The translations under genes were made by a program, and so were the position numbers. From a virus, in IMG/VR virus record IMGVR_UViG_3300027881_000059, positions 1 to 27,745 of that record: 27,745 nucleotides of DNA; one strand, 5' to 3'. A model generated the notes under the pieces. That model searched no databases. It was not told the DNA's origin and saw only the letters and a list, made by a program, of their open reading frames with translations. Numbering within the stretch: position 1 is the first letter of the stretch; each line of letters opens with the position of its first letter. Of the stretch, positions 4,506 through 20,293 are shown one piece after another.

Positions 4506-4904
4506 ATGAGCGGACTTGGAAGTCACGCAAGGTCGGGAGGCGGCAAGGTCTCCAAGGCCCAAAGAGCCCGGGAGGGCGACATCAATAAGGCGGTCGCCTC
4601 CAACATCCCCGGTTCGGGGCCGCAGGGTGTGCCTCCCGCAGAACGGGACAAGATGGGCCAGTACGCCCGGACCGGCAACGCGCAGCTGACGCCCAAGATC
4701 GTCGCCGCGCAGACCGGCCTCGGAACGCAGGGACCGAAGGTCGTGGCCTCGCTCGCCCGGATGGGCGGACAGGTTGCGCTCGCTCCCGGGCAGTTCGGAG
4801 CGTGGGCGCATCCGCAGGACCCGACGCCGAAGGCCTCGGACCAGGTGACGAGCGATTCCAAGAAACCCGGATCGCTCCCGCCCCCGGCTCCCCCGGTCTA
4901 TTGA
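4506..4904 (+). CDS. Gly/Pro/Ala-rich hypothetical protein
   Basis: A 132-residue protein without recognisable family. ATG 4506 is preceded by a strong CACGGAGGAATC ribosome site. The sequence is basic at the N-terminus (SHARSGGGKVSKAQRAREGD), Gly/Ala/Gln-rich in the middle (AAQTGLGTQGPKVVASLARMGGQVALAPGQFG) and ends in a Pro-rich tail (PPPAPPVY). It looks largely disordered, with no cysteines and no membrane segment. It sits between two head-proximal unknowns and is probably in the same transcription unit, although the palindrome just upstream may alter expression. Confidence 0.68.
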   Translation: MSGLGSHARSGGGKVSKAQRAREGDINKAVASNIPGSGPQGVPPAERDKMGQYARTGNAQLTPKIVAAQTGLGTQGPKVVASLARMGGQVALAPGQFGAWAHPQDPTPKASDQVTSDSKKPGSLPPPAPPVY

Positions 4905-4927
4905 TCATCGACTGAGGGAGAACTTCG

Positions 4928-5467
4928 ATGCGGTATCTCCATAAGGTGATGAGCCTTCCTTCGGAGGCGGAGCTGAACATCCTCGGACAAGAGGGGTGGC
5001 ATGTCTCTGCCGCTGTCGGGGATCAGATAATCATGGTGAAGAGCGTGGGCGAGCCCGAAGGGGCGGCCCGCGCTTGTTCCAATTGTGCATCGTTCCCCGA
5101 GACCGAGAAGGATTCTGAGGCGGGGAAATGTCCCGAGTGGGGCCTCCTCATGGAGCCCGGAGGAACGTGCGAGAAGTGGAATCGACGGGAGATGGAGAAG
5201 TCCGTCCCCGACGAAGACAGCGCGTGGCACTGGACCGCGAGAACGGATATCGGCGAGAAGAGGATCGAGGCCATCACGAGCCAGGATAAAGGGGGCGTGG
5301 CCCCCGAGCACAAGCATCGTGTCGTTGTGATCCGAGCGGCTGACGGCTCCGTGGTTCGAGGAAAGACCGACGTGGTCAACGAGCATGACCACGAGATCTT
5401 GTTCATGGGAATGACGGAGGAGTCCGACGGACATACCCACACGTTCGTGCTTCCACAGGAAGCTTAA
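4928..5467 (+). CDS. DUF4177-like N-terminus with HiPIP-like cysteines and HxH motifs
   Basis: A 179-residue protein with three visible parts. Residues about 1-40 (SEAELNILGQEGWHVSAAVGD) resemble the short DUF4177-type fold, whose signature is LNxLGxEGWE. Residues 50-84 carry C50, C53, C68 and C81 in a CSNC...GKCPEW...GGTCEKW arrangement, reminiscent of the four cysteines of high-potential iron-sulfur proteins and of a common phage cysteine knot; whether it binds Fe-S or zinc is not decidable here. The C-terminal part has HxH pairs at 128/130, 153/155 and 169/171 (DGHTH), matching the motif in the gene at 2137. Start: GAGGGAGAACTTCG precedes ATG 4928. A virion or assembly role is inferred from context only. 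Confidence 0.75.
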   Translation: MRYLHKVMSLPSEAELNILGQEGWHVSAAVGDQIIMVKSVGEPEGAARACSNCASFPETEKDSEAGKCPEWGLLMEPGGTCEKWNRREMEKSVPDEDSAWHWTARTDIGEKRIEAITSQDKGGVAPEHKHRVVVIRAADGSVVRGKTDVVNEHDHEILFMGMTEESDGHTHTFVLPQEA

Positions 5468-5482
5468 AGTAGGAGATGAAAC

Positions 5483-5839
5483 ATGGCGAACTTCACGGGA
5501 AACATGACGGCGGGCCTCTCGACGAGCGACGGGATCAGCCTCTCGAAGACGGTCAATGGTGCGGCGCTCAACGCGAAGGCGATGCTGGACGACACCTTCT
5601 CGTCCCCCGCGTTGGTCGATCTTGCGCCTCTCATGGCCTCGATCGCCGATCCGAAGTACGCGCTTCTCCTGTGCGACGGCGAGGGTGCGAACCTGAACTT
5701 CGACGGCCTCGGCGCGACGGCGAAGGCCTACACGACGATGCTCATGGAGATCCCCGCGGCTCCCGCCGGGGTGTTCGACATGGAGCTGACCGTGCTCGGG
5801 ACCTCGCAGCGAGTTCGCTTCCTCGGGATGGGCGACTGA
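5483..5839 (+). CDS. Small beta-rich hypothetical, possible virion protein
   Basis: A 118-residue protein. ATG 5483 is preceded by GTAGGAGATGAAAC, a strong ribosome site, 15 bases after the previous stop. The N-terminal half is polar and helical (SLSKTVNGAALNAKAMLDD). The C-terminal half alternates hydrophobic and small residues (YALLLCDGEGANLNFDGLG, then FDMELTVLGTSQRVRFLGMG), as in the small beta-barrel proteins that decorate phage heads or tails. No family is firmly recognised. It has no signal peptide or membrane segment. Confidence 0.68.
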   Translation: MANFTGNMTAGLSTSDGISLSKTVNGAALNAKAMLDDTFSSPALVDLAPLMASIADPKYALLLCDGEGANLNFDGLGATAKAYTTMLMEIPAAPAGVFDMELTVLGTSQRVRFLGMGD

Positions 5840-5858
5840 TCTTTCTTGGCGTTCGGTT

Positions 5859-6761
5859 ATGCAGACCCCTGAATCCGCAAGGATGAGGACACTCGCGGGG
5901 GGTCTGCGGTCCGAGGACCGGGCCGCAGGCTCCCCGCTTGGCATTGGACTTTTGTCCAAAATGCGCTCGGCTGCTGGTGGTCAAGCGTGGCAGCCCGTTC
6001 TCCCGAAAGACGCGGACTTCGCTCTGATGAATCAGATGTGCAGGGAGATGCGAGAGTCCCGCGAAGCATTCGTGGAGCCCATCGGGAAAGGCATCCATCG
6101 TCCCTACCGGGTGGAGTTCCACGACGGTCTCGATTCGGGACCGGTGACGACCAAGAAAGGAGCCCTCAAGACGGTCTACTCCCAGTTCGAGAACAAGAGG
6201 TACTGCGCCTCGATGGATCTCGACGTGACAGGCCCCGAAAGGGAGATCCTTTCATTCGCGTTGGATAGGGCATTTGGCTTCGACCTCGTTCCACCGACCA
6301 TCAGTCGGGAGGTATCGGGTGTCGGGGCCGGAAGCGTTCAAGCGTGGGTTGGGTGTCCGACGGCCTGGGAGTGGATCGACAAGGGGTACGACTACCGTAA
6401 GGATTGGACGAACCCGTGGCTCCACCGGCTGGCCGCCTTCGATTTCATCCGGGGAGAGATCGACAGGCATTCGAACAACTGGATCATGGACGAGAAGAGG
6501 CGCGTGTACGCGATCGATAATGGGTACTCGTTCGTGAAGGGTGACGACCGGACATGGCTCAAGTCAATTGCAGGGAAGCGCCTTATTGGAAAGCCGATCC
6601 ACCCTGTAGTGTTGGCTGAGATTGCTGCGATTGACGAGGATGCCACCTTTGATCTGGTGAACCGTGTTCGCTTCAAGCACGGTGAGGCGGACGGGGTGGT
6701 GAAGAGAATCAAGGAGCTGAAGGGCCTGCTGGAATGGCGAAAGCTCGGAGAAAAGTGGTGA
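5859..6761 (+). CDS. PI3/4-kinase-like (atypical kinase) protein
   Basis: A 300-residue protein with atypical-kinase motifs. Residues about 127-163 (EREILSFALDRAFGFDLVPPTISRE...GSVQAWV) match the REvAAYxLDRxLGxxxVPPTxxR...GSxQxWV signature of PI3/4-kinase-like and FAM20-like bacterial kinases. The catalytic segment GEIDRHSNNW (199-208; D202, H204, N207) and the metal-binding AIDNGYSF (218-225; D220) follow in the expected order. Expected activity is ATP-dependent phosphorylation of a protein or small molecule; the substrate is unknown. The start is uncertain: ATG 5859 has no good ribosome site, and the first 34 residues span two strong hairpins, so ATG 5961 (267 residues) is a real alternative. 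It overlaps the downstream HAD-type gene by 28 bases, suggesting coupled kinase/phosphatase expression. Confidence 0.75.
   Translation: MQTPESARMRTLAGGLRSEDRAAGSPLGIGLLSKMRSAAGGQAWQPVLPKDADFALMNQMCREMRESREAFVEPIGKGIHRPYRVEFHDGLDSGPVTTKKGALKTVYSQFENKRYCASMDLDVTGPEREILSFALDRAFGFDLVPPTISREVSGVGAGSVQAWVGCPTAWEWIDKGYDYRKDWTNPWLHRLAAFDFIRGEIDRHSNNWIMDEKRRVYAIDNGYSFVKGDDRTWLKSIAGKRLIGKPIHPVVLAEIAAIDEDATFDLVNRVRFKHGEADGVVKRIKELKGLLEWRKLGEKW
5895..5959. promoter_or_regulatory. Two hairpins in the leader or N-terminal codons of the kinase gene
   Basis: The first structure nests GCGGGG (5895-5900) with CCCCGC (5932-5937) and CTGCGG (5904-5909) with CCGCAG (5923-5928), plus an inner GGTCC/GGACC pair. 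The second is TTGGAC-TTTT-GTCCAA at 5944-5959, ending one base before ATG 5961. They may form an attenuator or translational control element if translation begins at 5961. Confidence 0.45.
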
Positions 6762-7303
6762 AACCGGCTATGGTGGCCGCCATCGACTTCGACGATACCT
6801 TGGTGTCGGAGAGCGATGGAAAGATGATCCCGGGCGCGAGGGAGGCCATGGCTTACCTCAAGGGGGCCGGGTGGAACATCATCATCTGGACTCACCACGG
6901 TGACCTTGAAGAAGTGAAGGAGACCCTGAATAAATTTAAGATCCCTTACGACGAGATTCGGGAGAAGATCTTTTTCGATGTCATGGTGGACGACAAGGCC
7001 ATCGGCTTCAAGGGGAACTGGGCCAACGTCGTGAACGAGATGGAGAATCAACGGGGAGGAAAGGCCAAGGAGGGAAAGGTGAGTGTCATGTCGGCGAAGA
7101 ACGAGAAGCCGATCGCCATCTTTTCAATTCAGGGCGGATCCGCTGTTGAAGAAACGGGTACAACGAACAAGGCCGTTTCGGTTATGATGGCCGAAGGAAT
7201 TGAAGCGGAAAATGGCAAGACAGTTTTTCCCGGAGACGGGGAACTTTTTCTGAAGGCGCTCTCGGACCTGAGAGGGACTTATCTCTGGGCCGAAGCGTAT
7301 TGA
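6734..7303 (+). CDS. HAD-superfamily hydrolase/phosphatase with extra C-terminal domain
   Basis: A 189-residue protein. HAD motif I is AIDFDDTLV (nucleophile D18, acid/base D20), motif II is IIWTHHG (T53), and the acidic motif IV region is VMVDDKAIGF (D86, D87). This is a compact HAD core of about 110 residues, as in small phosphatases with little cap. Residues 119-189 form a separate segment (MSAKNEKPIAIFSIQGGS...) of no recognised family. The ATG at codon 119 (7088) has AGGTGAG just upstream, so a separate small product is possible. ATG 6734 overlaps the kinase gene by 28 bases; ATG 6770 is an alternative. The substrate is unknown; a nucleotide, a phosphosugar or the kinase product are all possible. 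Confidence 0.78.
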   Translation: MAKARRKVVKPAMVAAIDFDDTLVSESDGKMIPGAREAMAYLKGAGWNIIIWTHHGDLEEVKETLNKFKIPYDEIREKIFFDVMVDDKAIGFKGNWANVVNEMENQRGGKAKEGKVSVMSAKNEKPIAIFSIQGGSAVEETGTTNKAVSVMMAEGIEAENGKTVFPGDGELFLKALSDLRGTYLWAEAY

Positions 7304-7316
7304 CGAGGAGGGTATC

Positions 7317-7562
7317 ATGCCCGCAGGCGGAGGAGACCCCAAGGTTATCGGCGACGGCCAGATCGTCAAGGTGCGTCCGGAGTTCACACGCGGCAATTGC
7401 GACGTCTGGGATCTGCGCGATGTCGTCGTGGCGCTCCTGGAGGAGCGAAACGATCTGCGTCAGGCCATCGTGGACGCGGCGGACTTTGCGGCGCTACAGG
7501 CCGCTGTCCCGCTCCTGCCGAGATGGATCCACATCATCGACTCCATCAACAACAGCCCGTAG
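7317..7562 (+). CDS. Small hypothetical protein
   Basis: An 81-residue protein. ATG 7317 is preceded by GACGAGGAGGGTATC, a very strong ribosome site, 13 bases after the HAD gene stop. The sequence has a short polar N-terminus (MPAGGGDPKVIGDGQIVKV) and then a mostly helical segment (LRDVVVALLEERNDLRQAIVDAADFAALQAAV) that could form a coiled coil. The end (LLPRWIHIIDSINNSP) is amphipathic. Located directly before the BppU-like gene, it may be an assembly partner of the fibre module. I do not recognise a family. Confidence 0.7.
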   Translation: MPAGGGDPKVIGDGQIVKVRPEFTRGNCDVWDLRDVVVALLEERNDLRQAIVDAADFAALQAAVPLLPRWIHIIDSINNSP

Positions 7563-7581
7563 CAGCCGGGGGGAGGTCGAG

Positions 7582-10698
<3,117 letters not shown>

Positions 10699-12124: not shown

Positions 12125-13969
12125 ATGAACAACATAATGCTCCACATCCATGGTGCCTGCGATAGAGGTGCCGTCCCCTTCCTGATCGCCGAGATGTCGA
12201 TCGCCTTTCCTCAGTTCTTCCACCATTCCCTCTACCTATCTGATGCCGAGGATGCGTCTGCCGTGCAGATGTTGAACGACTTTAAGATCAGGACGGGGTA
12301 TGGGGAAGTCTCAGAGGATCTGGTTTCCTCGATCGATCCCATGGTGATCGTGCTGTATGACGTAGGGGGTGATTCGGTTGATGATTCGCCCTGGCTGTGG
12401 CTCCGAAAGTGGCCGACGATTTCCATTCACTACAGTGCAGTGAGACCTACCGTCCCGTGCGACCTCCATGTCTTCGTCTCCGATAGGATGAGGGGGGCCT
12501 ACGACAATCTTGTGCAGTCCGGTTTCGTATCGAGATGGGAGAAGGTTCTCCTTGAGATGGGGCCGATGGAGGGGCCGTGGTATCGAAGGAAGATTGACGG
12601 GGCCAATGTCCTCGCTCTTCGAAACACGCTGTCCTTCTACCTCCTTGAGTCGCTAACAGGTGTACATCCTGAAAAGGATCTGACACCGAAGGTTGATAAG
12701 CCCGTTATCTCGTCTGTATGGGGCGATAGAAAACCCCTGATGAATAGGGGAGTCGTGGTTGGGTGTGGCATCCATCAGGAGTGGATGCTGAAGTGGTGGT
12801 GGGATAACTACAGGAGACACAACGACCTGCCCGTGCTGTTCGTCGACATGGGCGAGCGCGAGAAGGCCATGACGCTGGGGGCCCGTGAGTGGTGTGAATC
12901 CGTAGGCGAGGTGGCGACCTTGCGGCTTCCTCTTGATGGGTGGTTCCAGAAGCCTTTTGCGTTTGCTCAGACGATCTTCGAAGAGTCGCTCTGGATGGAT
13001 GTGGATTGCGAGGTACGGGGGAGGGTAGACGAGGTCTTTGATCATTGTAAGGCCGGTTTCGCCGCTGCCCAGGATCCTTATTACGTGTTCAGAGGGGTCA
13101 AGGGATGCTTCAACTCGGGGGTGATCGCTTTTAGGTTTGGGAGCGATGTTGTATCCGAATGGTGCGATATCATCACGAAGGAGAAGGAGCGCTACCGGGA
13201 CGACCAGCATGTCCTTCACTCCATCAAGCTGAAGGATCCGTCGAGAATCTCCGCCCTTCCGAGAAAGTTCAACTGGCTTCGGCTCGATGGTGACACCAAC
13301 CCCAGTGCCGTGTGTATTCATTGGACTGGTCCGAGGGGTAAAGAGATCGTCAAGGCGAAGATGGAAGGTCGCTATCTCAGGGAGCATTTCATCGAAGATC
13401 TCGCCAATACGTTTCGGTGGAAGAGAGGTCTTGAGATCGGGACATTGAAGGGCAGAACATTCCTCCATCTTCTTGAGAAATGCCCCACCCTTGAGCTGAC
13501 GACGGTGGACTTGTGGGAGCCCCAGCCGGATAACCCGGGCCCCGAGAAGTACACTCCCGCAGAAGGGGTTTACAAGTGGGATCATGAGGCGAACGAGGCT
13601 TATGTGAGGGAGAAGGCCAAGAAGTACGGGGAGAGGGCGATCATCAAGAAGGGGGACAGCAGGGAGGTTGTTCCCGATCTTCCGGGGGTGTACGACTTCG
13701 TCTTCCTGGACGGGGACCATGGGTCTGAGGCGGTCAAGGCCGACATTCTTAATGCGATTGTGAAGTTGCAGCCTAATGGCGTTCTGGTGGGACATGATAT
13801 CGATTGGCCGTCGGTGAGATCTGCGGTAGAGAAACTCTTTCCGGGCTTCATGGTTGGTCCGGACAACATCTGGCTCATTCCCCTTTCAATGATGGAACAC
13901 CTCGTGAACCAGAGAGGGCCTGTATGCCCTGTTGGGGACAAGGGAGTGGAAGGACCAACGGGTCTATGA
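12125..13969 (+). CDS. Glycosyltransferase-methyltransferase fusion
   Basis: A 614-residue, three-part protein. Residues 1 to about 190 resemble the N-terminal half of a GT-B glycosyltransferase (IDPMVIVLYDVGG, WPTISIHYSAVRP, DLHVFVSDRMRGA). Residues about 205-420 look like a GT-A domain with the DxD motif WMDVDCEV (D292, D294) and a CFNSGVIAFR acceptor-site-like motif (328-337). Residues about 430-585 are a class I SAM methyltransferase of the Methyltransf_24 type: GLEIGTLKGR (435-444), VDLWEP (461-466), FVFLDGDHG (525-533), GVLVGHDIDW (552-561). The last residues (GDKGVEGPTGL) form a Gly-X-Y stub. The likely role is to add and O-methylate a sugar on a virion or host glycan; substrates are unknown. 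The stop overlaps the next start (ATGA). Confidence 0.82.
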   Translation: MNNIMLHIHGACDRGAVPFLIAEMSIAFPQFFHHSLYLSDAEDASAVQMLNDFKIRTGYGEVSEDLVSSIDPMVIVLYDVGGDSVDDSPWLWLRKWPTISIHYSAVRPTVPCDLHVFVSDRMRGAYDNLVQSGFVSRWEKVLLEMGPMEGPWYRRKIDGANVLALRNTLSFYLLESLTGVHPEKDLTPKVDKPVISSVWGDRKPLMNRGVVVGCGIHQEWMLKWWWDNYRRHNDLPVLFVDMGEREKAMTLGAREWCESVGEVATLRLPLDGWFQKPFAFAQTIFEESLWMDVDCEVRGRVDEVFDHCKAGFAAAQDPYYVFRGVKGCFNSGVIAFRFGSDVVSEWCDIITKEKERYRDDQHVLHSIKLKDPSRISALPRKFNWLRLDGDTNPSAVCIHWTGPRGKEIVKAKMEGRYLREHFIEDLANTFRWKRGLEIGTLKGRTFLHLLEKCPTLELTTVDLWEPQPDNPGPEKYTPAEGVYKWDHEANEAYVREKAKKYGERAIIKKGDSREVVPDLPGVYDFVFLDGDHGSEAVKADILNAIVKLQPNGVLVGHDIDWPSVRSAVEKLFPGFMVGPDNIWLIPLSMMEHLVNQRGPVCPVGDKGVEGPTGL

Positions 13970-15117
13970 AATACACGAACAGAGACAACGAGGATTTCAG
14001 GGGGAAACGGATCCTCCTTGTGGGGCAGCCGCAAAAACCTCCGGTGACGACCATCCGTACTCCCATCGCATTGTTGGACTTGGCGCAGTACTACCGGAAG
14101 TACGCGTCGGCGACAGTGGATTGCGTGAGCATGACCCACCTCCCTGATGGGGAGTACGATTATGTGGGGTACTCCGTTCTCTGCGAGAACGAGGAGATCG
14201 AGGCCGAGGTGAGGTTCCTTTCGAGGATGTACCCATCGTCCCGCATCATCGTTGGGGGTAAGTGGGCCACCGACCCTGGGATACCAATAGAGGCACCCGA
14301 CAACGTCGCGTTCTTCAAGGGGCCAGGAGAACTCTTGGCGACGGACGAGATCGATTACGACGAATATCCGGGGTGGAATTCGGACGATCTATGCTCGCCG
14401 GGGTTCGGCATCGGACATCTCGGGATCATGACCACACGGGGATGCCCGTACAACTGTCACTTCTGTCACAACACCGAGAAGAAGGTCCAAAAGTTCAGCG
14501 TGGAGAGGACCGTCCACAACATCAAGATGGGTTTCGAGCGCCTGGGGGTTCCCGCTATTTTCTTCAACGACGATATCTTCACGAGCAATGCCGAGAGGAT
14601 GTACGAAATCATAAGTGCCTGCGCGGATGCAAAAGTTGACCTTAGGGGAAAGAGCAAGTTTTTCACCCATGTGAATTTCGTGAAGGATCCCGTCGTGGCG
14701 ATGATCCGGGTCTACCAACCGTGGCGGGTGGAGATTGGGATCGAGTCGGGGAACACGGATCAGCTGAAGCGGATGGGCAAGACGTTCACGGCGGAGAAGG
14801 CCTATGCAGCTGTGGAGCGTCTCCTGGAGAACGGGGTGCCGTTGAGCGTCCTGATCCTCATCGGATTTCCTGGCGAGACCGTGGAGAGCCTGGAGGATAC
14901 GTTGCGGTTCGTGGACAGATTCCGCAAGAGGATCGATTACATCGGGGTGAGCTACTACCAGCCGGTTCGGAACACCGTTGGGTGGGAGATGTGTAAGGTT
15001 CGGCTTGGGCGCGACCCCAAAGTCGGGACCAGGACTCACAATGTGACGTACGTTGATCCTGGCCTGACGGCGGAGACGTTGGTGAAGTACCATCACAGGA
15101 TCAGACACGGCGCGTGA
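13966..15117 (+). CDS. Radical SAM enzyme with Rossmann-like (B12-binding-like) N-terminus
   Basis: A 383-residue protein. ATG 13966 overlaps the previous TGA and follows GGAAGGA by about 10 bases; an in-frame upstream extension to 13804 would overlap the methyltransferase domain and is rejected. Residues about 12-130 form a Rossmann-like segment (KRILLVGQPQK, YDYVGYSVL, RIIVGGKWAT) as in B12-binding radical SAM enzymes, but the DxHxxG cobalamin motif is absent. The [4Fe-4S] motif is CPYNCHFC (C160, C164, C167), followed by AIFFNDDIFTSN, VEIGIESGN and LILIGFPGETVESLEDTL, the usual class B order. Placed between sugar-modifying genes, it could methylate or rearrange a sugar (inference). The stop overlaps the next start (GTGA). 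Confidence 0.85.
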   Translation: MKYTNRDNEDFRGKRILLVGQPQKPPVTTIRTPIALLDLAQYYRKYASATVDCVSMTHLPDGEYDYVGYSVLCENEEIEAEVRFLSRMYPSSRIIVGGKWATDPGIPIEAPDNVAFFKGPGELLATDEIDYDEYPGWNSDDLCSPGFGIGHLGIMTTRGCPYNCHFCHNTEKKVQKFSVERTVHNIKMGFERLGVPAIFFNDDIFTSNAERMYEIISACADAKVDLRGKSKFFTHVNFVKDPVVAMIRVYQPWRVEIGIESGNTDQLKRMGKTFTAEKAYAAVERLLENGVPLSVLILIGFPGETVESLEDTLRFVDRFRKRIDYIGVSYYQPVRNTVGWEMCKVRLGRDPKVGTRTHNVTYVDPGLTAETLVKYHHRIRHGA

Positions 15118-15942: not shown

Positions 15943-16281
15943 ATGCCGACGAAGCAGGAGATTCTAATAGAGCTTCGGCGCATTCATCGCCTCTTTGACA
16001 CTTGGGTGGAGAAGCGGAATGGCGACGGAAGACGAGAAAGTTCTGGGGGAAATACACGATTCCCTGAGGCGGCTGGAGAAGGCCGTCCGGGAGGGAGGCC
16101 AATCGCCTTCAGGGTCACGGACCCCGCGCTCGACGGAGCAATTTCCGAAGGTCGAGCTGGAGATCATGCGGAAGATTCAGGAGCACAGGACGGCGTGCTC
16201 CGCCTCCATGAAGGAGGTGATCGGGGAAAAGGTGGAACCCCTCCTGGCGAAGATGAAGGAGATCGAGGTTCGGGTAGATGA
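15943..16281 (+). CDS. Possible small overlapping ORF with strong ribosome site
   Basis: ATG 15943 is preceded by GGAGAGGGAGGC, one of the best ribosome sites in the window. The first about 28 residues (MPTKQEILIELRRIHRLFDTWVEKRNG) form a plausible amphipathic helix and resemble the start of the next gene (MATEDEKVLGEIHDSLRRL). Beyond codon 26 the frame overlaps the well supported gene at 16019 in another phase and becomes Gly/Arg/Glu-rich, so the long overlap is doubtful. Options are a genuine short overlapping gene, or a frameshifted duplicate N-terminus of the next gene. Confidence 0.35.
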   Translation: MPTKQEILIELRRIHRLFDTWVEKRNGDGRRESSGGNTRFPEAAGEGRPGGRPIAFRVTDPALDGAISEGRAGDHAEDSGAQDGVLRLHEGGDRGKGGTPPGEDEGDRGSGR

Positions 16282-16582
16282 GATCAATAAGGAGCTGGGT
16301 GGGCGGATCAACGGGGTGAGGGATGAGGCGACCAAGACGGCGACCGGCACGGTCGTCACCCTGACCGACAAGGTCGACAACATCAACGACTCGCTGTTTG
16401 GGACGAGGGGGGATGCGGGCCTTGAGGATTCTGTCAGGGACCATCAGGGATGGATTGATCGATATGAGGAGAAGAAGGCCAAGACGGCTGCTTCCTCTAA
16501 ATTCAAACTTTCTACTCTCCTTCAGATCGCCGGAATTCTTGTGGCGATTGCCCTCGGGGTCATTGGAATCGTTTTGAGGTAA
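16019..16582 (+). CDS. Coiled-coil protein with C-terminal membrane anchor (XhlA-like architecture)
   Basis: A 187-residue protein. ATG 16019 has GTGGAGAAGCGGA upstream. Residues 1-30 form a charged helix. Residues about 45-150 contain heptad-like stretches (EPLLAKMKEIEVRVDEINKE, VVTLTDKVDNINDSLF). Residues about 163-187 (LSTLLQIAGILVAIALGVIGIVLR) are one hydrophobic membrane segment ending in a single arginine. A cytoplasmic coiled coil plus a C-terminal transmembrane helix is the layout of XhlA-type lysis accessory proteins, but XhlA is about half this size, so a membrane-anchored structural protein is equally possible. No endolysin is seen in the window. Confidence 0.72.
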   Translation: MATEDEKVLGEIHDSLRRLEKAVREGGQSPSGSRTPRSTEQFPKVELEIMRKIQEHRTACSASMKEVIGEKVEPLLAKMKEIEVRVDEINKELGGRINGVRDEATKTATGTVVTLTDKVDNINDSLFGTRGDAGLEDSVRDHQGWIDRYEEKKAKTAASSKFKLSTLLQIAGILVAIALGVIGIVLR

Positions 16583-16588
16583 AGGACC

Positions 16589-17248
16589 ATGGCGGGAGTC
16601 GACCCAGCTTTCGTAGGGAGCGTGTTCAACGCCCTCCCTCTCGACAGGATGATCACCATTCCCCTCATGGCGATGGTGCAGGCGCAGGTTCAAGCATCAA
16701 AAGCCTATGTGGACTTCCTCATGGGGGTCTGCATCAAGGAAGGAAAGGCGATCGCCGTCCAGTTCGACTACGACGAGACCCTCCTCGATGCGGAAGGGAA
16801 CATCACCGGATCTCACAGGAAGACGGTTCGCGTCCCCCTCATGGCGATGGTGGTTCATCCCTGTATCTGTATTGAAGAGGGAACCATCGACTTCGAGTTG
16901 ACCGTGACGCAGGCCACCGAGGAGAAGTCGGCCACCGCTGGGGAAGCTTCGCTGGAAGCGACCATCGGTTGGGGACCATTCAAGGTGAGTGTCCACGGGC
17001 AGGTCTCCCACAAGACGGAGCAGACCCGGAAGACGGACACACGGGCCAAGTACTCCATTCACATCACGGCCAAGCGTCAACCTCCTCCCGAGGGTCTTCA
17101 GAGGATCCTCGACCATCTGGTCGACGCCGCCACCAGGCCAGGGACGCTTCCTGCGAACAAGGATCCGAAGCCCGTGGAGGACCTCAAGAACGAGGTGCCC
17201 TTGGACGAATCTCCTCCCGCGCCGGGCGGGACGGGCTTCGGCGATTAG
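16589..17248 (+). CDS. DUF2589-like protein 1
   Basis: A 219-residue protein whose ATG 16589 lies 6 bases after the previous stop. Seen: LPLDRMITIPLMAMVQAQVQASKAYVDF (16-43), an FDYDE strand (59-63), VRVPLMAMVVHPCICIEEGTIDFELTV (80-106) and a final beta strand SIHITAKR. The duplicated PL.AM.qAQ / VPLMAMV..P...I....DFE pattern matches my knowledge of DUF2589 proteins, whose biochemical role is not established as far as I know. The C-terminus (about 185-219) is a Pro/Gly/acid tail. It lies next to a second copy-like gene, and such proteins often occur in tandem. It may bind membranes or assemble into oligomers (speculation). Confidence 0.7.
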   Translation: MAGVDPAFVGSVFNALPLDRMITIPLMAMVQAQVQASKAYVDFLMGVCIKEGKAIAVQFDYDETLLDAEGNITGSHRKTVRVPLMAMVVHPCICIEEGTIDFELTVTQATEEKSATAGEASLEATIGWGPFKVSVHGQVSHKTEQTRKTDTRAKYSIHITAKRQPPPEGLQRILDHLVDAATRPGTLPANKDPKPVEDLKNEVPLDESPPAPGGTGFGD

Positions 17249-17258
17249 GGGGTGACGA

Positions 17259-17768
17259 TTGGGCTGGCTCAGAGACTGGTGGGACGGTAAGCCGGTCAAC
17301 AAGCACATGTTGACCGACATTACCCGTGGGATGCAGCACGCCGCCAGTACCACTACGGCCATGCTTGGAGCCCAGTTTCTCCACCTCATCAAACAGTATT
17401 TCGACAAGGAGCAGGACGGCACCCTCAAGGCCAAGATGGTTCAGATTGAGATATCCCCGGGCCATTTCGTGAAGGTTCCTCTGATCTCTCTTGTGCAGCC
17501 GAGCGCGATCGTCTTGAAAAGACTCAAGATTCGCATGTCGGTCAGGATCGAGGAGGCCGAGATCCGGGAGGCGGTCGAGGAGACGATGGGTAACTCGGAG
17601 GCGACCAGGCTTCAATTCAAGGTGAGCATGTCGCCGAGGACCGGGATCATGGGTAGGAGGTCGGACGTCACGGACATCGAGATGGTCTTCGAGGGGACCG
17701 ATCCCCCCGAGGGTATCATGCGGATAATCGAGCAGCATACGAACCTCATCGAACCACTCAAGAGGTAG
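17259..17768 (+). CDS. DUF2589-like protein 2
   Basis: A 169-residue protein. A TTG start at 17259 is chosen because AGGGGGTGACGA lies directly upstream and it begins 10 bases after the previous stop; ATG 17307 (codon 17) is the first ATG. Residues about 15-50 form an Ala/Gln-rich helix (RGMQHAASTTTAMLGAQFLHLIKQYF). HFVKVPLISLVQPSAIVLKRLKIRMSVRIEE (69-99) is equivalent to the VPLMAMVVHPCICIEE stretch of the preceding protein. RLQFKVSMSPRTG and EGIMRIIEQHTNLIEP close the fold, paralleling the EGLQRILDHLVDA segment upstream. The two proteins are therefore diverged relatives and probably partners. The TTG start may lower expression relative to the first. Confidence 0.65.
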   Translation: MGWLRDWWDGKPVNKHMLTDITRGMQHAASTTTAMLGAQFLHLIKQYFDKEQDGTLKAKMVQIEISPGHFVKVPLISLVQPSAIVLKRLKIRMSVRIEEAEIREAVEETMGNSEATRLQFKVSMSPRTGIMGRRSDVTDIEMVFEGTDPPEGIMRIIEQHTNLIEPLKR

Positions 17769-17838
17769 GCTGGAATCTAACTCGTTGCCCTAAGGGGCCT
17801 TTCCGTGTAGTTTGTGGGTGTATTTTGGGGATCATGAT

Positions 17839-18192
17839 ATGGGAGCTTCCGAGGGAGTCTATCAGGTAGAGCGGGAATTTAAGGTTGGCGCTGGCGACCT
17901 CGTCAAGCTGGCTGGAGCGCGGTATCATCCTTTCCGCCTCGCCACGGTTCTCTGGGAACGCAAAGAAATCGACGCCGTGGACATCTTTCTGGAGGTGGTC
18001 GACGGCGACAGGATTTACAAGATCGATGAGGTACTTGGCTGCATTTGCAAATTCTATGCGTGGCCGAATTCCGCATCACCCCGCGAGATTTACCTCGTCC
18101 CCGACATGCGTGTCAGGTTCCGAGTGATAGGAGCCCAGGCCGCGGAGAATCAGTCGGTCTTCCTCACGTGGGCCGAGCTGGGGGCCATTTGA
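17839..18192 (+). CDS. Small beta-rich hypothetical protein upstream of portal
   Basis: A 117-residue protein. ATG 17839 follows TTTTGGGGATC; a GTG at 17812 in the same frame is the alternative. The sequence is a run of short beta strands (VEREFKVGAGDLVKLAG, VDIFLEVVDGDRIYKIDEV, REIYLVPDMRVRFRVIG, SVFLTWAELGAI), with no membrane segment and two cysteines (CIC) in the middle. The strand pattern with LVPDMRV near the end is typical of small virion or decoration proteins, but I do not recognise a family. It sits 19 bases before the portal gene and is likely cotranscribed with it. Confidence 0.68.
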   Translation: MGASEGVYQVEREFKVGAGDLVKLAGARYHPFRLATVLWERKEIDAVDIFLEVVDGDRIYKIDEVLGCICKFYAWPNSASPREIYLVPDMRVRFRVIGAQAAENQSVFLTWAELGAI

Positions 18193-18211: not shown

Positions 18212-20293
18212 ATGGAAGAAAGTCATCCATTCAAGGACAGGGTTGGGGAGGCCCTCGTGTCGAAGGATATGAGTCCCGAGAACCTGGAGAACATGGTGAA
18301 GGTCCTCCTGCTCGGAGGCAATGATGTTGAGAAGGCACGGGGCGGCGATAAGAAGGAAGAGAACAAGGATTCAAAACAGCTCGGGGACTTCCAGCAAATC
18401 GTCGGCGAATTCGTCCCTCCTCCATTCAATCCCCTCGTCTGGGCGCAGACCCTCAAGATCAGTACCCGCCTCGCCAGGTGCGTTCGGACATACGCCCGGA
18501 ACACCGTAGGCCTCGGGTGGTCTATCGACCCCATCCATCCCGTGACCGAGGATACGCCGAAAGAGGTCCGTGAGGAGATCAAGGAGCAGACTCACGTACT
18601 TCGGGCCTTCTTCAACAGGCCGAATCCTCTCATGCCTCTTTCTGAAATCTTCTACCTGGAAAAGGTAGATGAGGAGGCCGTGGGCAACGGGTACGTTGAG
18701 GTGGTGAGGAACAATGGCGGCAAGATTGTCAGGCTGTATCACGTACCGTCCGTCACCATTCGGAAAAGGATCATCAAGGATGGGCAGAATCTGGAGGTCT
18801 CCGGGTTCGTCCAGATTCGTGGAAGCCAGAAGCGGTACTTCAAAGACTTCGGTGATCGTCGGGCGATGGATACTTTTACCGGGAAGTACACGAAGACGGA
18901 TGGTGAAAAGCCCCTTCCTCCTGATAGGCGTGCGACGGAGATCATTCATTTCCTGATCTACGATCCGTCGAGTTCTTACTACGGTGCTCCGCGCTATGCC
19001 CCGTCCGCTACGGCCATCGCCGGGAACAGACAGTCCGCCATTCGAAACGTGAACTTCTTTGAGAACGATGCGGTGCCGAGGATGGCGCTGCTCGTTTCGG
19101 GCGGCAAGCTCAACGCCGAGTCCATGCAGCAGATCGAAGACTTCGTTCGAGCCAAGGGACGCGGCGTTGAAAACGCACACAGGGTTATGGTCGTCCAGGT
19201 GGAACCTTTCAAGGTTGGCTTTCAGCAGCAGGGCAAGGTCATGGTCGACCTCAAGCCGCTGACGGTCGGCGTGACGGAGGACGCTTCCTTCTCGCAGTAC
19301 CGTGAGGCGAACGACGAGGAGGTCCGCGAGATCTTCGGACTGGGCCAGATCTTCTTCAAGGCCGAGGGGGCGAACCGAGCAAACGCGCAGGTCTCCCGCG
19401 AGATCACGAACGAGCAGGAGCTTGAGCCTGATCGACTGGCGAAGGAATATGTCATCAATCAGACCATCGTGGATGACATCCTCTTCCAGATGATGGGGGC
19501 AACGGGGGATGAGACCGACGAGGAGATAGATGAATACAGGAAGAAGATTCAAGTTCGATTCCGCTTTGCCAGGCTCACGCTGACGGATCCGCTGGATGAG
19601 GCGCGAATGAATCAGATGTACGCCTCGCTGGGTGCCATCACGCCGAACGAGCTGCGCGAGGCGATTGGAAAGCCGCCGTACCCGAAGGACTACTTTTTCG
19701 CCGACAAACCTCTCCCCATCGCCATGGCCGAGCTTACGGCTGGGCTGGCTCTCGCCATCTCACAGAAGGAAGAGGAGGCGATGCCGCAGCCCGAAGGCGA
19801 GATGCCTGGGATGGAAGGTATGCCCGGAATGGAACCCGGCGAAGGCGAGGAAGACGAAGAAAAGCCTGATTGGTGGGACGGTGATCCCTCGACTCCTGAG
19901 GAGACTCCCGGCGGTGATGAAGAAAGGAAGCCCGATTGGTTTGAGGGGTCTCGCGGCAAGAAGGGGGATATTCGAGGAATCGATGGAATAGCCGAGGTTC
20001 CTGGGATGGATTCTCCTTCCGCACCTCCCGGCGCACCGGGTGCTGGGCCTGCCCCAGGCGAGGAAACGATCCCGAAGCCGGGCTCCATCGGGAAGCCTCC
20101 GAGAAAACCAAGGGCCCCAAAGCCCACTCAGGGTATTGCCTCGGGACATGGGTCGCGTGTATCATCAAGAAAGAATTTACGGGATCCGCGAGCCTTCGCA
20201 TTGCTTGCGGAAATGATGAGCGACATTCGAAAGTTCTCGTTCAGCCTCAATGGGGCGAACTTCATAGGGGGTACAGATGGAAGTGATCGCTGA
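18212..20293 (+). CDS. Phage portal protein, PBSX (XkdE)-like
   Basis: A 693-residue protein. ATG 18212 follows TTTGGAGTCAAC. Portal proteins form the dodecameric ring at the capsid vertex through which the terminase pumps DNA. Family landmarks: VPPPFNPLVWAQTLKISTRLARCVRTYARNTVGLGW (68-103), LEKVDEEAVGNGYVEVVRN, LYHVPSVTIRKR, IIHFLIYDPSSSYYGAPRYAPSATAIAGNRQSAIRN, and NQMYASLGAITPNELREAIGKPPY near residue 470. The core (about 60-510) is complete. Residues about 515-650 are a Met/Pro/Gly/Glu-rich low-complexity tail with PGMEGMPGMEPGEGEE-type repeats, then a basic segment and a final helix. That extension makes it longer than typical PBSX-type portals. The 3' end overlaps the protease gene by 17 bases. 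Confidence 0.92.
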   Translation: MEESHPFKDRVGEALVSKDMSPENLENMVKVLLLGGNDVEKARGGDKKEENKDSKQLGDFQQIVGEFVPPPFNPLVWAQTLKISTRLARCVRTYARNTVGLGWSIDPIHPVTEDTPKEVREEIKEQTHVLRAFFNRPNPLMPLSEIFYLEKVDEEAVGNGYVEVVRNNGGKIVRLYHVPSVTIRKRIIKDGQNLEVSGFVQIRGSQKRYFKDFGDRRAMDTFTGKYTKTDGEKPLPPDRRATEIIHFLIYDPSSSYYGAPRYAPSATAIAGNRQSAIRNVNFFENDAVPRMALLVSGGKLNAESMQQIEDFVRAKGRGVENAHRVMVVQVEPFKVGFQQQGKVMVDLKPLTVGVTEDASFSQYREANDEEVREIFGLGQIFFKAEGANRANAQVSREITNEQELEPDRLAKEYVINQTIVDDILFQMMGATGDETDEEIDEYRKKIQVRFRFARLTLTDPLDEARMNQMYASLGAITPNELREAIGKPPYPKDYFFADKPLPIAMAELTAGLALAISQKEEEAMPQPEGEMPGMEGMPGMEPGEGEEDEEKPDWWDGDPSTPEETPGGDEERKPDWFEGSRGKKGDIRGIDGIAEVPGMDSPSAPPGAPGAGPAPGEETIPKPGSIGKPPRKPRAPKPTQGIASGHGSRVSSRKNLRDPRAFALLAEMMSDIRKFSFSLNGANFIGGTDGSDR

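Follow-up and report, generated by a model that had tools for sequence, protein, structure and literature searches.

Proteins of the DUF2589 family (PF11655) occur in phages and bacteria as two paralogues, designated A and B, which are encoded together as a nearly constant pair, and a cell-wall hydrolase is often encoded beside this pair, belonging to unrelated families at different loci. The company of wall hydrolases is the new point, and the split into A and B, with its nearly constant pairing, is demonstrated here. Taken together, A and B may represent one heteromeric factor which, jointly with a wall hydrolase, targets peptidoglycan during lysis or during wall passage, a reading that is advanced tentatively and at somewhat less than an even chance.

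The window, by which is meant the whole stretch of DNA analysed, is a 27,745-base virus record in which portal and capsid-family genes are present (Pfam, PHROGs). An earlier note, made from its sequence, had described tandem, diverged DUF2589 proteins in a phage, and this description holds, with both ORFs present (Table 1) and matching PF11655 at 89 and 54 bits, above the curated cut-off of 23 bits. Both matches run nearly the full length of the profile (Pfam scan; A residues 17–178 on profile positions 1–152 of 154, B residues 18–159 on positions 2–150 of 154) and were also recovered when the window DNA was scanned. Profile search, which the note had named as a possible refuter, returned PF11655 over the cut-off for A and B. 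Whereas Pfam gives no function and holds A and B under one profile, they are shown here to be two paralogues that go together. Comparison of A with B gave 25 % identity over 97 amino acids (BLASTP, E 2e-4, a single comparison) and a profile-profile probability of 98 % (E 3e-14); the two are remote homologues. They are distinct and deeply split paralogues; profiles built separately on A-type and B-type sequences separate the proteins cleanly, with window A scoring 282 bits against the A profile and 31 bits against the B profile, and window B scoring 218 bits against its own. Neither protein matched PHROGs at E 0.05, hence none of its structural phage families, and a tblastn search with A matched one of 50,697 phage records.

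Table 1. Features of the window in and around the DUF2589 pair.
Feature	Coordinates	Strand	Details
Charged, coiled-coil-like (by eye) protein	16019..16582	+	one C-terminal hydrophobic segment, 16517-16576 (hydropathy)
DUF2589 paralogue A	16589..17248	+	219 aa; PF11655 4.3e-25, 89.3 bits
A: RVPLMAMV core motif	16829..16852	+	P83 invariant in 58 aligned A proteins
A: TRKTDTRAKY, strongly conserved in paralogue A	17024..17053	+	T146, R147 and D150 invariant in 58 A proteins
A: PEGLQRIL helix start	17087..17110	+	E168 invariant in 58 A proteins
DUF2589 paralogue B	17259..17768	+	169 aa, TTG start; PF11655 2.5e-14, 54.4 bits
B: KVPLISLV core motif	17472..17495	+	P74 and L78 in at least 90 % of 54 B proteins
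B: PPEGIMRII helix start	17703..17729	+	E151 invariant in 54 B proteins
Portal protein	18212..20293	+	PF04860 8.8e-28; phrog_12 8.3e-40

Two shared motifs had been proposed for the pair. The helix motif EG[LI][QM]RI[LI] is found exactly in both proteins, at A168 and B151. The pattern [KR]VPL.[AS][ML]V.P...I in its full form matches neither, but its core [KR]VPL[MI][AS][ML]V, shortened from that pattern after the sequences had been inspected, can be located in each protein (A81 and B72). Both core motifs are absent from the 18,301 remaining ORFs, counted in all frames, of the examined loci. Besides the invariant residues of Table 1, A153 and Y155 are conserved in at least 90 % of the 58 A proteins. 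AlphaFold models were too weak for use (A, pLDDT 64 and pTM 0.42; B, pLDDT 72 and pTM 0.41); searches with Foldseek and VIA-align 2 on these weak models gave no credible match (best Z 3.1 for A, none with Z of at least 2 for B), and a search of the PDB by sequence with A returned nothing credible (best E 0.61). The literature searched agrees that the function of DUF2589 is not established, holding one passing sentence on DUF2589 and nothing on PF11655 or IPR024510. DUF2589-related genes are mentioned in the archaeon Archaeoglobus in one paper (PMC3949148).

The pairing of A with B is well supported. Adjacent DUF2589 genes, a survey of which had been proposed in phages, were sought in 176 phage and bacterial loci (L003–L013, L019–L171, the window and L189–L199), many of them near-duplicates, with 42 clusters distinguished at 75 % identity of A (175 loci with A counted). 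Two A-baited locus sets were taken, comprising the best 80 of 312 and the best 80 of 206 relatives, and close relatives are therefore over-represented. Exactly one A and one B are encoded in 166/176 loci, always on the same strand. The two lie within 1.1 kb of each other in 157 loci, in the order A-B in 116 and B-A in 41, and are spaced by 1.1 to 4.6 kb in nine, eight of which belong to Pectobacterium or Brenneria. In one Pectobacterium locus (L059), large ORFs that are NRPS-like by eye are situated between B and A and after A (4583–7681 and 8768–10279). In four of the ten exceptions (L053, L065, L067 and L128) A is near the end of the examined stretch; in L102 the pair is broken into several pieces, L199 contains masked bases, and the remaining four (L193, L195, L197 and L198) encode a divergent A subfamily with other partners. 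This subfamily has no detectable B and is accompanied by two conserved partners of approximately 226 and 190 amino acids, the larger of which was considered as a remote B and found to be unsupported as such (hhalign probability 0.2 %). A family of 84–92 amino acid proteins adjoins or separates A and B in a clade of eight loci (L020, L021, L022, L189, L190, L191, L192 and L196), where it is possibly a third component.

Because the loci had mostly been fetched with A, the search was repeated from the B side, where A adjoins B in 28/30 loci and B is at the contig edge in the other two, with many of these contigs overlapping those of the A-side set. Exactly two PF11655 matches were counted in 23/24 whole genomes, which, like the loci inspected in detail, were picked by the authors, partly after hydrolases had been seen. 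DUF2589 is rare in evenly drawn genomes, with 9/398 in one phylum and 5/148 in another, where each draw includes its centre genome; among these fourteen, two genomes (G277 and G451) have two matches inside one frame and four (G024, G042, G447 and G550) have one match. By hydropathy only, no membrane segment is predicted in 169/170 A and 166/167 B proteins and, as nearly all show neither such a segment nor a signal-like start, cytoplasmic synthesis is probable for both.

The earlier note had further placed the pair beside a membrane-anchored protein and before the portal, and had suggested that this may link the family to virion assembly or membrane contact. Both neighbours are present as described, with a 126-amino acid ORF (17812–18192) between B and the portal. 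Among the loci examined, homologues of the membrane-anchored protein occur in eight viral contigs besides the window (L003–L010), all close relatives, and it appears to be a lineage-specific companion, with the portal-like neighbour forming an ORF cluster in nine loci. Tandem DUF2589 proteins in a phage, of no established function, thus stand, but the suggested link is weak, since these neighbours recur in the closest relatives alone. The recurrent neighbours of the pair in other phages and in bacteria are cell-wall hydrolases. Small membrane proteins are mildly commoner close to the pair in viral loci (17/66 small genes near vs 9/68 far) and not commoner in cellular loci (24/110 near vs 13/66 far), and this enrichment, weak in the former and absent in the latter, was dropped as support.

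No wall enzyme family was found by Pfam in the 29 window proteins scanned. PF00959 is absent from the window and from the records of four close relatives, phrog_3000 and PG_binding_1 are absent from the records of four close relatives, and GH19 from the two searched. Among the close relatives, phage G570 has a contractile tail, encoding families of the sheath, the baseplate and the tape measure, together with a match to a hub/tail-lysozyme family, and no family named endolysin is present among 25 of its 33 families listed (69 proteins, with approximately 77 of 122 kb scanned). Elsewhere in the window are encoded a long collagen-like protein with many GPTGPTG repeats (8050–10698) and a protein with weak, sub-cut-off likeness to PI3/PI4 kinases (5859–6761; E 5e-4), as well as, upstream of the pair, a protein with a methyltransferase domain (12125–13969; PF13578, E 9e-18) and a radical SAM protein (13804–15117; PF04055, E 2e-21).

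A and B could instead be virion proteins, for example ejected with the DNA or placed in the neck or baseplate, which aid the genome across the wall, with the hydrolases serving as virion or entry enzymes. The position of the window pair directly before the portal argues for this, as do the contractile tail and the hub/tail-lysozyme-family match of G570. However, bacterial loci in which inspection by eye reveals neither head nor tail genes retain the pair, and endolysin families (phrog_7) are the best PHROGs matches of the single GH24 partner scanned, such that a virion role is considered unlikely.

The most frequent hydrolase is a GH24 phage-type lysozyme, detected with our own profile (the seed protein of which was confirmed as PF00959, with Pfam PF00959 matches for L077 and L191) in 50/80 genome loci, where it invariably overlaps the pair or lies within 11 bases of it. 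In 54 loci the start of the lysozyme ORF falls in an interval reaching from 109 bases upstream to 11 bases downstream of the point where the B ORF ends, and the two ORFs overlap in 51 of these when longest-ORF starts are used. A catalytic Glu plus Thr motif pattern is found in 50/60 lysozymes of these loci, with the remaining ten deviating next to the Glu (SEG) or ahead of the Thr, and none of 61 lysozymes has a membrane segment predicted by hydropathy. A LuxR-type regulator is encoded in the examined stretch of 48/50 GH24 loci, and the GH24 cases are mostly of one common ancestry; Pseudomonas loci encode a Mor-like regulator and no GH24. As background, 51 copies of PF00959 were counted in 35 whole genomes (approximately 160 Mb), of which 12 copies in 11 genomes lie within 3 kb of the pair, vs 0.08 expected by even spread, where the genomes were author-picked, many are of common ancestry, and distances were read from coordinates.

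Other lineages have other hydrolases. GH19 enzymes are encoded near the pair in L023, L190 and viral locus L147, in the last after B, and the single genomic GH19 copy adjoins the pair in both G001 (L023) and G193. Two of the seven GH19 (PF00182) copies in 25 cellular genomes are beside the pair, vs 0.012 expected (nominal P 8e-5). This P value overstates the case, since GH19 was selected once L023 (G001) had revealed it, which leaves G193 as the only unforeseen case. Four further kinds occur at single loci, namely an Amidase_3 beside the pair (L192), an N-acetylmuramidase (PF11860) approximately 2 kb from A (L022), a protein combining PG_binding_1 with GH46 (L101), and an M15C endopeptidase recognised by PDB sequence match (4.5e-5) with no Pfam match (L195). 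The PF01471 background gave one adjacent case in cellular genomes, G023, which is L101 and was previously known. Whole-genome backgrounds cover PF00959, PF01471 and PF00182 only, and these families were chosen after adjacent cases had been seen. Among phages, phrog_3000 (family c21) is found in 28/35 viral loci L106–L140, all within 1.6 kb, and in L143; its members also match the endolysin family phrog_33083, and some begin with PG_binding_1. It is present in 15/32 whole viral records, within 3 kb of the pair in ten and at approximately 8 to 210 kb in five (author-read coordinates). On a quick tree of A with states assigned by the author, hydrolase kinds, with the insertion described below as one state, changed at least nine times among 26 rows, and presence vs absence of a hydrolase at least eleven times among 61 rows. 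Five of the twelve evenly drawn DUF2589 genomes that remain without the centres have a hydrolase within 3 kb (G001, G064, G193, G277 and G357), and in the other seven no match to PF00959, PF01471 or PF00182 adjoins the pair.

In one group of large phages (L155, L158, L160 and L164–L167), B is approximately 250 amino acids long with a split profile match. PG_binding_1 (PF01471) scores over its cut-off inside the B proteins of L155 and L164, with DUF2589 on both sides. Ten contigs, most of them already in the locus set, cover the L155 protein almost fully at 80–100 % identity and the same insert is visible in the translations of four contigs, so the insertion is not one assembly error. Some B proteins thus have a domain in common with PG_binding_1 proteins, but in B it is an insertion, found in 2/54 scanned proteins, and the window B is without it.

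Lysis regions of phages are recombination-prone, and an accessory pair could sit in them by chance and be domesticated along with them, its function unrelated to the wall. Such hitchhiking is in keeping with the window, where no hydrolase was found nearby, and with the same result in 7/12 evenly drawn genomes, the neighbours of which were partly scanned. Against it are the variety of mutually unrelated hydrolases found from locus to locus across the A tree, the overlap of B and lysozyme ORFs in 51/54 GH24 loci and the insertion of a domain into B, and chance company is accordingly held to be distinctly unlikely.

Many bacterial cassettes combine the pair and GH24 with a barnase-fold protein and small membrane proteins. 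The barnase-fold proteins have a hydrophobic segment in 21/38 ORFs. Family c15 (37 loci) is encoded downstream of the lysozyme, and its barnase fold is recognised from the sequence match of L049:6866–7357 to PDB 2rbi (E 2e-11); the general-base Glu position of the family, read with the author's pattern, holds Ser in 18/37 and Thr in 1/37, and is unreadable in 18/37. Families c22 and c38 comprise small proteins, mostly with one to three hydrophobic segments; family searches identified neither holin nor spanin, as c22 and c38 have no Pfam match and c22 has no PHROGs match. Tandem copies of a protein of approximately 220 amino acids occur downstream of the lysozyme in Burkholderia (L055:11927–14212), and no credible PDB relative of it was found by sequence. 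The bacterial loci may be domesticated or prophage parts, as their flanks look chromosomal by eye but the Kosakonia-type cassette is also carried by IMG/VR viral contigs L103–L105.

When found outside phages, lysis cassettes have been termed type 10 secretion systems, and PMC10847048 reports them to be lytic. The endolysin, small membrane proteins and LuxR-type regulator of phage lysis cassettes and type 10 systems are also present in many bacterial pair loci, whereas DUF2589 is not among the components described in the available part of that source, and in contrast to such cassettes, with their holin, endolysin and spanins, the window has no endolysin found among 29 proteins scanned. The resemblance of cassettes with the pair, GH24, barnase-fold and small membrane proteins to these release systems (PMC10847048) would fit an assembly of A and B, as a structure or cargo in the cytoplasm, to be freed by the lysis enzyme, their link with the wall being one of release only. 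The peptidoglycan-binding domain inside B, however, points to contact with the wall itself, which makes a cargo role rather improbable.

A heteromeric wall accessory, as favoured here, would explain the pairing, the change of hydrolase family, the B-lysozyme ORF overlap and the inserted binding domain. A and B would be two obligate subunits of one heteromeric factor, which would work on or at peptidoglycan together with the wall hydrolase of each lineage and help to open the wall, most likely during lysis and release and less likely in wall passage at entry. Adjacency of genes is not equal to interaction; we infer the A-B complex, a general binding of peptidoglycan, and a step at exit rather than entry. 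That A and B instead restrain the hydrolase, as inhibitor or timer, draws on the same genetic evidence, including the overlap of B and lysozyme ORFs, but one conserved pair would need to recognise approximately seven unrelated kinds of partner and the inserted domain suggests the substrate rather than the enzyme as target, for which reasons it is very improbable. The peptidoglycan accessory leaves unexplained the loci where no hydrolase was found nearby, among them the window and its close relatives, and the archaeal DUF2589-related genes, since to our knowledge no murein is expected in Archaeoglobus. For the window's own phage, a wall role would follow by homology only.

More broadly, and doubtfully at this stage, DUF2589 A/B could be a widespread two-subunit cofactor of wall opening which docks on peptidoglycan and recruits or licenses unrelated endolysins. 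On this broader reading, both phage and domesticated lysis modules would have a component that current catalogues do not recognise. If the wall role is true, phage annotation overlooks a cofactor of lysis or wall passage, as in the failure of PHROGs to match it and the single record matched by tblastn. DUF2589, a family with no assigned function, hereby gains a concrete and testable candidate role beside wall hydrolases.
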